A DNA stretch of 64,000 nucleotides from an uncultured Clostridia bacterium (GTDB lineage: Bacteria; Bacillota; Clostridia; Christensenellales; Borkfalkiaceae): NCBI GenBank assembly GCA_944368215.1, contig CALVWX010000007.1, positions 26,231-90,230 of the forward strand, given 5' to 3'. Made by a program: the position numbers and the translations under genes. Below are positions 46,123-60,946 of this stretch, piece by piece. The notes below the pieces were generated by a model that ran no database searches, was not told the origin of the DNA, and saw nothing but the letters and a program-made list of their open reading frames with translations. How positions within the stretch are numbered: position 1 is the first letter of the stretch; the number at the start of each line of letters is the position of its first letter.

Positions 46123-46132
46123 GGGAAAAACG

Positions 46133-46349
46133 TTCACAAAAGTTTTCGGCTGGTGACGCCTTAACTTTTCGTGATTTTAAGGGCCGGCCCTCTTGCCGCG
46201 ACGCTGAGGGCTCTCAATCTGATAGTCGCGGCAATTCATCCTGCTGAGGCGCAGGTATGCGCAAATTGAGGCTGCGGCCCGAAAGCGTGGTTTCGGGCCG
46301 CAACGTAAATTTTATATTTCACAAAAGTTTTCGTCCGGTGAGGCCTTAA
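46133..46349 (-). ncRNA. Duplicated structured intergenic element, copy A
   Basis: About 217 nt, read on the minus strand. It is bounded by 32-bp near-identical direct repeats (46318-46349 and 46133-46164) that end ACTTTTGTGAA. Inside are an 11-bp hairpin GCGGCCCGAAA/TTTCGGGCCGC, the conserved block CGCCTCAGC, a long-range stem TTGCCGCGAC/GTCGCGGCAA, then ATCACGAAAAGT. Copy B at 59384-59598 aligns along its whole length. It has no conserved open frame and no known family. Confidence 0.6.
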
Positions 46350-59271: not shown

Positions 59272-59285
59272 CTATATTTTATTAT

Positions 59286-59310
59286 CGCGCAAAACTGTAG
59301 TATTTGCGCG
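59286..59310. repeat. 25-bp CGCGCAAAA palindromic repeat, copy 3
   Basis: Arms CGCGCAAAA and TTTGCGCG flank CTGTAGTA. Same family as 6092-6116 and 52474-52498. Confidence 0.65.
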
Positions 59311-59383
59311 AAGAGGAGGGGCAACGCAGCAAAGTTGCAAGGCGTGTGTTCACGGCTTGCATAGAGCAAAGTTTGCCCCGACG

Positions 59384-59598
59384 AGGAGGCACTTTTGTGA
59401 ACATTCATAATAATTTATGTTTTGACCCGAAACCGCGCTTTCGGGTCAAAGGCCCCGATTTGCGAACCCTTTCGCCTCAGCGGTGGGAATTGCCGCGATT
59501 ATATAATTGCGGGCCCTTAAATTATCGCGGCAAGGGAGGCGGGGCCGCCAGAAATCACGAAAAGTGTCCTCATTCGGCCAAGGAGGCACTTTTGTGAA
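59384..59598 (+). ncRNA. Duplicated structured intergenic element, copy B (glmM leader)
   Basis: About 215 nt bounded by two copies of AGGAGGCACTTTTGTGAA (59384-59401 and 59581-59598). Inside are a 12-bp hairpin TTTGACCCGAAA/TTTCGGGTCAAA, the block CGCCTCAGC, a stem AATTGCCGCGAT/ATCGCGGCAA, ATCACGAAAAGTG and a final hairpin AAAGTGTCCTC/GAGGCACTTT. It aligns with copy A at 46133-46349. Stem bases differ between copies in ways that keep pairing. The final repeat carries the glmM ribosome site and GTG. Confidence 0.65.
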
Positions 59599-60946
59599 TA
59601 GTTTTTTTGGCACAGACGGCTTCCGCGGCAAAGCGGGCCGGACGCTTACGGCCGAACATGCCTTTGAAGTGGGGCGTTTCCTCGGCTGGTATTACGGCGC
59701 CGCGCAGTCCAAAAAATGCCGCGCGGTTATCGGCAAGGACACCCGCCGTTCGTCCTATATGCTCGAATACGCCCTCGCTGCGGGTCTGACGGCCTCGGGC
59801 GCGGATGCTTACATAATGCACGTCACAACCACGCCGTCGGTTGCCTACGCGGCGCGCGCCTTTAACTTCGACTGCGGAATAGTTATTTCCGCCAGCCACA
59901 ATCCATTCAGCGACAACGGTATAAAAATTTTAAACGGCTCGGGCGAAAAACTCGTGGGAGGCGCAATCCGCCTCATCGAGGACTATCTGCGCGGTGCTCT
60001 GCGTTCGGGCGGCAATCCCTTCGCCGTGCCCGATGCAACGGGTGAAAACGTCGGCTCGGTCGTCGACTTCGTGGCGGGCAGAAACAATTATACGGCGCAG
60101 CTCATTTCGCTCGCGCCCCGTTCCCTCTCGGGCTATAAGGTGGGGCTGGACTGCGCCAACGGCGCGGCGTACAACATTGCGCGGCGGGTGTTCAGTGCGC
60201 TCGGAGCAAAAGTTTACGCTATAGGTTGCAGGCCGGACGGAACCAACATCAACCTCAACTGCGGCTCTACCCGTCCCGCGCGGCTTATATCTCTCGTAAA
60301 AGAGCGCGGGCTGGATATAGGGTTCGCCTTCGACGGCGACGGAGACCGCTGCATATGCGTCGACGAACGCGGCGAAGTGGTGGACGGCGACGGCATTATG
60401 TATATACTCGCGGGCTATCTGCGCCGCGGCGGAAGCCTCGTCGGCGACAGGCTGGTCGCAACGGTCATGAGCAACTCTGGGCTGATTTCATCATTAAAAG
60501 AGCTCGGCATAGATACGGAAATATGCGGCGTGGGCGACAGCGCGGTGTACGAAAAAATGTGCTTCTGCGGCGCGGCGCTCGGCGGCGAACAGTCGGGGCA
60601 CGTGATAATCGGCAAGGTCGAAAACACGGGCGACGGCATAGTTACGGCGCTGTACCTCATGCAGGCGCTCGCGGCGGGCGGGGGTACGTTCTCCTCGCTG
60701 CTGCGCGGATTAAAACTGTGGCCGCAGACGTGCGCGTCCGTCCCCGTGGAGGATAAGGCGCGCGCGGTTTCGCCCGCTGTTGCGAGCGAAACCGCGCGCG
60801 CAGAGGAGCAATTCAAGGGCGAAGGCCGCGTCCTCGTAAGGCCTTCGGGCACCGAAAACGTGGTGCGCGTAATGGTTGAATGCTCCGACGAAAATTTATG
60901 CAAAGAGGTGTGCGCGCGCATAGCGCGCGCCGTAAAAGGTGACTGA
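59594..60946 (+). CDS. glmM: Phosphoglucosamine mutase
   Basis: This 450-residue enzyme converts glucosamine-6-phosphate to glucosamine-1-phosphate. Family start NSFFGTDGFRGKAGRTL; phosphoserine loop ISASHNPFSDNGIK; metal loop FAFDGDGDRCICVD; sugar loop GGEQSGHVI; C-terminal phosphate loop RPSGTENVVRVMVE. The start is GTG at 59594, seven nt after AGGAGG; both lie in the terminal repeat of the structured element. The glmS gene begins two nt after its stop. Confidence 0.95.
   Translation: MNSFFGTDGFRGKAGRTLTAEHAFEVGRFLGWYYGAAQSKKCRAVIGKDTRRSSYMLEYALAAGLTASGADAYIMHVTTTPSVAYAARAFNFDCGIVISASHNPFSDNGIKILNGSGEKLVGGAIRLIEDYLRGALRSGGNPFAVPDATGENVGSVVDFVAGRNNYTAQLISLAPRSLSGYKVGLDCANGAAYNIARRVFSALGAKVYAIGCRPDGTNINLNCGSTRPARLISLVKERGLDIGFAFDGDGDRCICVDERGEVVDGDGIMYILAGYLRRGGSLVGDRLVATVMSNSGLISSLKELGIDTEICGVGDSAVYEKMCFCGAALGGEQSGHVIIGKVENTGDGIVTALYLMQALAAGGGTFSSLLRGLKLWPQTCASVPVEDKARAVSPAVASETARAEEQFKGEGRVLVRPSGTENVVRVMVECSDENLCKEVCARIARAVKGD

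Follow-up and report, generated by a model that had tools for sequence, protein, structure and literature searches.

E1, a high-copy structured repeat of a Clostridia lineage that resembles BOX and bcr elements and appears to be mobile

The window analyzed here, a stretch of 64,000 nt from an uncultured Clostridia bacterium (contig CALVWX010000007.1), carries two diverged copies of an element on opposite strands, and the hairpins of the two copies differ by base changes that preserve pairing. A sequence-only reading of this DNA had taken the pair to be an element present twice, of novel layout and under selection for its RNA (or single-stranded DNA) structure, which raises the question of whether such copies mark an RNA selected for its structure or a repeat of another kind. 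The reading as a novel RNA is partly supported, and the element, designated E1, is a high-copy, mobile-looking repeat rather than a two-copy RNA. E1 is about 190 nt long and is composed of a leader, the stems S1 to S4 and a terminal stem S5, whose last bases (GTTAA, GTGAA and similar) form a fixed 3′ end (Table 1).

Table 1. Positions of the two E1 copies and their parts in the 64,000-nt window
Feature	Position	Strand	Remark
E1 copy 1	59407..59599	+	model R1 match, 176.4 bits
E1 copy 2	46132..46316	-	model R1 match, 159.2 bits
Direct repeat of the S5 3′ arm of copy 1 (AGGAGGCACTTTTGTGAA), upstream of copy 1	59384..59401	+	
Direct repeat of the S5 3′ arm of copy 2 (CACCGGACGAAAACTTTTGTGAA), upstream of copy 2	46318..46340	-	
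AT-rich leader, copy 1	59407..59420	+	present in most aligned copies
Stem S1, copy 1	59421..59450	+	arms 59421-59432 and 59439-59450
Stem S2 (GCGAA/TTCGC), copy 1, then conserved CTCAGC	59462..59475	+	
Stem S3 (TTGCCGCGAT/ATCGCGGCAA), copy 1	59490..59533	+	
Stem S4, copy 1	59535..59549	+	limits approximate in copy 1
Terminal stem S5, copy 1	59555..59597	+	arms 59555-59571 and 59582-59597

Alignment confirms that the two window copies are similar from end to end, and all of the arms quoted in the sequence-only reading are found. The pairs of the first hairpin are altered on both arms as described (TTTGACCCGAAA/TTTCGGGTCAAA in copy 1 and GCGGCCCGAAA/TTTCGGGCCGC in copy 2), and the exchange between C-G and T-A reported for the second stem is seen as a T-A to C-G change in S3. 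The blocks regarded as unpaired proved to be largely stem sequence, as ATCACGAAAAGT and ACTTTTGTGAA sit in the two arms of S5 and the CGC of CGCCTCAGC forms an arm of S2. The span 59384-59598 holds as an element but not in its start, since E1 begins near 59407 and the S5-arm repeat at 59384-59401 lies upstream of it; both this span and the recurrence of ACTTTTGTGAA arise because a repeat of its own 3′ arm precedes each copy. With up to one mismatch ACTTTTGTGAA occurs five times in the window (mean of 0.99 in shuffles, none of 100 as high), and ATCACGAAAAGT occurs twice, a count reached by five of 100 shuffles. The 3′ side of S5 in copy 1 includes a Shine-Dalgarno-like AAGGAGG (59580-59586) and the GTG start (59594) of a gene whose identity as phosphoglucosamine-mutase-like comes from its Pfam domains.

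A blastn search of the 1.67-Mb own genome with copy 1 yields 50 matches at E≤10, 38 of which fall below 1e-6, with reverse-strand stem matches among the remainder. From this genome 43 places were extracted and 37 copies trimmed, and the model R1 was built from a hand-made five-stem structure over 22 well-aligned copies chosen from these. R1 has 81 matches in the own genome at E≤0.1, including 52 at 87 bits or more and, among the weaker ones, fragments, which replaces the earlier count of two. Related genomes also proved to contain E1 when searched with R1, as 36 of 39 genomes of the genus are positive with one to at least 66 matches each (66 candidates scored per genome), and matches are absent from G008, G012 and G272. 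The order-level search of 248 genomes gives 14 positives, consisting of seven of the eight listed genomes of genus g1 and seven of the nine listed for genus g19, or two of 115 genera, with a diverged form of E1 in the sister genus; no third genus matched among these genomes with 10 candidates per genome scored and strict filters. By blastn, 22 of 25 genus genomes (the own genome included) and none of 16 genomes from other families are positive. A search of GTDB genomes with the core pattern returned at least 106 stretches, and the titles among the matches listed are those of Clostridia or Clostridiales MAGs, several of them Candidatus Coproplasma. An E1 copy was also found in one viral contig, and a plasmid search with one 3.2-kb locus (L011) gave no match. 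In an inovirus-like contig with a G2P-type replication protein (PF23343), a copy (L295:1378-1671) lies in frame inside a small ORF, an arrangement reminiscent of the Rickettsia palindromic elements.

The expectation that E1 belongs to no known family is upheld at the Rfam gathering score, at which a known RNA family is ruled out. Rfam release 15 identifies only a tRNA in the window and has no match at either E1 copy, and in nine other loci searched at E≤1 or E≤5 nothing reaches the gathering score at E1 copies. A single sub-threshold match overlaps a copy (L011:1635-1714, tfoR, 19.7 bits against a threshold of 70), and no ribozyme match is present in four array loci. One of the loci contains an M-box riboswitch above the gathering score (L022:2901-3063). 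No paper describing the repeat was among the literature matches listed.

The proposed fold is supported by the pairing of its stems across copies. In the own-genome set of 22 copies (MAFFT alignment A2), 27 of 45 pairs show change on both sides and 89.2% of cells pair, compared to 76.4% after shuffling and with none of 500 shuffles as high, and the count of further pair types is equalled by 50 of 500 shuffles. A larger set of 78 copies was drawn from the own genome (G000), G284 and G303 (E≤1e-15, 92 sources, with L016, L020 and L098 left out), and some of these copies lie at shared sites and so are not independent. Here 40 of the 45 pairs show both-sided change, 90.1% of cells pair compared to 71.1% after shuffling, and 617 cells are changed on both sides compared to 169.7, where cells are sequences and not events; slid structures pair in 34-54%. 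The alignment of the 78 copies was fitted to the model and hence leans towards it, and A2 gives a similar picture. The covariation therefore persists across many copies from three genomes, its disappearance on such an alignment having been named beforehand as an observation that would count against a conserved structure. The score of S1 is lowered because this stem has two types. Folded singly, the sequences are more stable than their shuffles (z of -3.1 and -5.5), the best single fold of copy 1 seems to pair the 5′ arm of S3 locally, and RNAalifold on 37 copies recovers only S3, S5 and part of S1. Outside the stems, the bases CAATTTG and CTCAGC are conserved. A conserved reading frame was considered and is not supported. 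Some frame stays open in 32 of 78 copies, more than in any of 50 shuffles (mean of 21.9 and maximum of 31), yet the open frame varies among copies and none is constant. Structure rather than protein is conserved in E1, as had been proposed.

The placement of E1 was examined in 71 of the 78 copies for which both neighbors were found (seven were skipped), using ORFs from a simple script with rough starts and exact stops. In 52 of these 71 copies the closer gene lies on the 3′ side of E1 rather than on its 5′ side (p=1e-4). Among 33 stops facing the 3′ end, 24 lie at positions -5 to +6 (10 at exactly -5) and one at -22, and the median distance to a facing stop is 3 nt on the 3′ side versus 150 on the 5′ side; the 27 stops within 15 nt comprise 21 TAA, 4 TGA and 2 TAG. 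For the 38 starts facing the 3′ end the median is 46 nt and 15 lie within 15 nt (four of them at -36, reflecting rough start calls), while 3 of 38 lie this close on the 5′ side. The orientations of the neighbors are mixed and unbiased (23 --, 15 -+, 12 +- and 22 ++). At the L009 and L019 sites the stop is native, because orthologues end at the same residue as the gene beside E1, and at one site in G303 (L151:8356) E1 seems to supply the stop codon. By eye, a gene end with the C-terminus YINGRFG, presumably that of a PstB-like gene, is followed by E1 in G000, G303 and the sister genus (L039, L257, L049), and this end seems to be a hot spot or an ancient insertion. Placement at gene edges could in part result from selection in a compact genome.

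Several features suggest that E1 is mobile, including tandem arrays, element-free sites and flank duplications. Head-to-tail arrays have periods of 167, 187 and 191 and in some cases lie at contig ends, and adjacent R1 matches also occur in genus and order genomes. Tandem Repeats Finder gives no row in L298 or L301, yet R1 places adjacent units in the stretch of L301 (G282:C40). By eye, across ten loci, E1 stands in front of the phosphoglucosamine-mutase-like gene in G000 and G284 and is missing there in G275 and G303 (L100 and L101 compared with L099 and L102), and G277 has E1 before this gene with another S5. Because the arm sequence at the start of this gene resembles an element subtype found at other places, G275 may have lost a copy by excision and kept a scar, instead of never having had E1 there. 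In G284 the element is missing from the L023 and L036 sites, with flanks that overlap by 18 bp at L023, while at L030 both G000 and G284 have E1 plus a duplicated gene end, and the insertion is therefore old. Inspection by eye shows lone S5-like arms in G284 at two places where G000 has E1, and no S5 scar at the L009, L010 and L153 sites that lack the element. In the broad sense of small non-autonomous structured repeats (MITE-, BOX- or bcr-like), E1 is high in copy number, short, interspersed and non-coding, and is present or absent at orthologous sites.

The flanking repeats are of two kinds that fit no one simple scheme, a direct repeat of the copy's own S5 arm and a long duplication after S5. 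The former precedes 12 of 78 copies, and strict duplication of the S5 arm was rejected as a general rule, 66 of 78 copies being without it by the test used. The latter is clear in 5 of 37 copies (L011, L023, L024, L030, L036) and spans 16-80 nt as aligned and more by eye, with an upstream copy that stops 13-51 nt short of the element and a downstream copy that begins 1-4 nt past the trimmed 3′ end. Short target duplications of fixed length, as in a classical MITE, were not found, since lengths vary and 32 of 37 copies show none by this test. Judged by eye, the 5′ ATTAACG agrees with the 3′ CGTTAAT in certain G000 copies but the ends do not match in those of G217 or G270.

E1 is accompanied by related repeats. 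By eye, E3 has the leader and S1 module in common with E1 and a different core and terminal hairpin of its own (L013, L016, L040, L298-L300), and L300 contains E1, E3 and E1 in succession. Upstream of copy 1 in the window, the hairpin TCGCGCAAAACTGTAGTATTTGCGCGA (59285-59311) is apparently the terminal hairpin of an E3 in reverse orientation. Also by eye, the structured repeat E2 (GGGACGARCAACGC...GAGATGAGY...GAGAAG) replaces the S4-S5 part of E1 in L017 (near 1640) and L020 (near 1690) and stands alone in L105, from another species. Short intergenic palindromic repeats of the type TCATCTTGAGCGAAGTCGAAAGATCT, REPIN-like in appearance, are frequent in L009, L010, L162 and other loci.

We favor, at a probability of roughly 0.6, the reading of E1 as a non-autonomous mobile repeat in which S5 is the joining end and the mobilizing enzyme is supplied in trans. 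From the observed copy number, fold, covariation, arrays, anchoring of the 3′ end at stops, site polymorphism and S5-arm repeats, we infer a mode of movement and a trans-acting enzyme as follows. E1 would move as a DNA copy, possibly as a circle or a single strand, and would insert beside genes where its S5 end meets a short match, for example TTA in a stop codon or TTAAGGAG in a Shine-Dalgarno site. Joining to the S5 of a copy already in place would build arrays, and recombination between flanking repeats may remove the element and leave a lone S5 arm. Retention of the stems would reflect that E1 works as a folded single strand, whether for its movement or to spare the transcript of the host. 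A guide-like role of the S5 5′ arm, suggested by the site at the phosphoglucosamine-mutase-like gene, is weakened by the reappearance of S5 subtypes at sites that are unrelated. No mobilizer was found in the draft genomes among the three enzyme families tried (Y1 transposase, reverse transcriptase and integron integrase). Derivation from IS200/IS605 was considered and is not supported, as the Y1 transposase PF01797 has three matches in G000 and none in G002, G006, G014 and G016, drafts that may miss genes and that contain 30 to at least 66 E1 matches.

The covariation itself might arise mainly from template switching during replication (quasi-palindrome correction), which rewrites one arm from the other and involves no selection on the fold; such switching has been described for RNA hairpins and can alter both arms at once (excerpts of PMC8794818). 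We regard this as a serious contender, short of even odds. Among 11 copy pairs with matching flanks, some of which may be different insertions, 65 of 376 comparisons differ on both sides and 11 on one side, compared to 36 and 160 expected for independent change. The six pairs likely to be true shared sites give 18 both-sided and 6 one-sided changes in 209 comparisons, or 12 versus 5 without one confounded pair in which S5 was replaced by E2. In the 35 reliable pairs (seven outer pairs of S1 and three further, doubtful ones being excluded from the 45), 46 of 2670 cells are G-T or A-C, alongside 2570 Watson-Crick and 54 other cells. The rarity of one-sided changes, which also fits template switching, leaves the selection on RNA structure proposed in the sequence-only reading not secured. 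However, G-T exceeds A-C in the reliable pairs (35 versus 11, p=5e-4, with cells not independent, a count chosen after that over all 45 pairs, 99 versus 73, was not significant at p=0.056), and such an excess favors one of the two strands being the form under selection. Among the 40 copy pairs that are most alike there are 127 both-sided and 54 one-sided changes, 24 of the latter G-T, and intermediates therefore exist. Template switching also leaves the conserved non-stem bases unexplained, and the both-sided shared-site changes are scattered rather than in blocks, the S5 swap aside.

Other explanations concern what E1 does or how it spreads. Its transcribed hairpins could act in cis on adjacent genes as a 3′-end stabilizer, a terminator or a control of translation initiation, in keeping with a 3′ end that meets stop codons and frequently comes close to starts, an S5 that encloses the start region of the phosphoglucosamine-mutase-like gene in G000 and G284, copies at the same gene end across species (by eye at the YINGRFG end in both genera) and the wobble asymmetry of the reliable pairs. 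A cis-acting RNA is nevertheless rather unlikely, as orientation to the neighbors is unbiased, sites vary among relatives with zero to at least 66 matches per genus genome, tandem arrays occur and no constant T-run follows S5 by eye. A retro-element that is made from an RNA template and integrates through target-primed reverse transcription would account for the fixed 3′ end, the variable 5′ start, the long variable duplications and a first unit in the L083 array that looks truncated at its 5′ side by eye. This route appears improbable, with no RVT_1 (PF00078) match in the own genome (a draft of 91.8% completeness) or in G002, G006 and G016, drafts that have 30 to at least 66 E1 matches and may miss a reverse transcriptase; G014, with 61 E1 matches, has two RVT_1 matches. 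Least credible of all is an integron-type cassette array with S5 as an attC-like site, to which the imperfect terminal hairpin, the TAAC/GTTA ends of many own-genome copies, the direct repeats and the arrays would correspond. The ends of S5 co-change to TCAC/GTGA, TCGT/ACGA and TCGC/GCGA, so that GTT is not fixed, and the integrase TIGR02249 is over its cut-off in none of 31 genomes; weaker matches, such as other tyrosine recombinases would be expected to give, occur in 13 of 31 genomes and in 13 of the 14 controls.

If E1 is indeed a trans-mobilized repeat, a bolder and quite unlikely extension is that E1, the sister-genus form and E3 belong to a single superfamily of minimal mobile elements, which travel as small circles or as single strands in folded form and whose self-complementary terminal hairpin picks stop-codon and Shine-Dalgarno sites and thereby spares genes; we know of no such transposition route for bacterial repeats. 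Whatever its route, E1 provides a large natural set of paralogous structured copies, some at the same site in related species, with which one can test directly whether hairpins acquire compensatory changes stepwise under selection or in one template-switch event. Its placement at stop codons raises the question of how a repeat with no known enzyme finds gene edges, and its history cautions that covariation between two copies within one genome may mark a mobile repeat and not a functional RNA gene.

We place E1 with the small structured repeats as a new family similar to BOX and bcr, and it has partial counterparts in several other systems. REP and REPIN sequences are hairpin repeats in intergenic DNA that are moved by RAYT, with REPs of 20-40 bp; E1 is similarly intergenic and possibly moved in trans, but has 190 nt and five stems, and PF01797 is without a match in several high-copy genomes. 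The mycobacterial MIRU have edges that overlap stop and start codons and form tandem copies, as E1 does, whereas E1 occurs in both orientations and also at convergent stops. Integron attC sites have a terminal imperfect hairpin, arrays and a GTT core, and E1 shares the hairpin and the arrays but has no fixed GTT core and no integron integrase over the cut-off. The BOX, RUP and SPRITE repeats of Streptococcus pneumoniae are, like E1, small, high-copy, non-autonomous and predicted to fold, although sequence and fold differ and E1 ends in a hairpin; according to excerpts of PMC3049150, BOX is modular (boxA-boxB-boxC), these repeats, like E1, are often clustered with others, and BOX and RUP have terminal inverted repeats resembling the ends of resident IS. 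The bcr1-bcr18 repeats of the Bacillus cereus group are likewise lineage-limited and intergenic with up to dozens of copies. In the portions of PMC6542083 and PMC3446304 drawn on here, bcr1 averages 39 copies, bcr10 and bcr18 have conserved secondary structure, about half of the copies lie within transcripts and mobility is tied to TTTAT repeats, whereas E1 is found at stop codons and shows either long duplications or repeats of the S5 arm.
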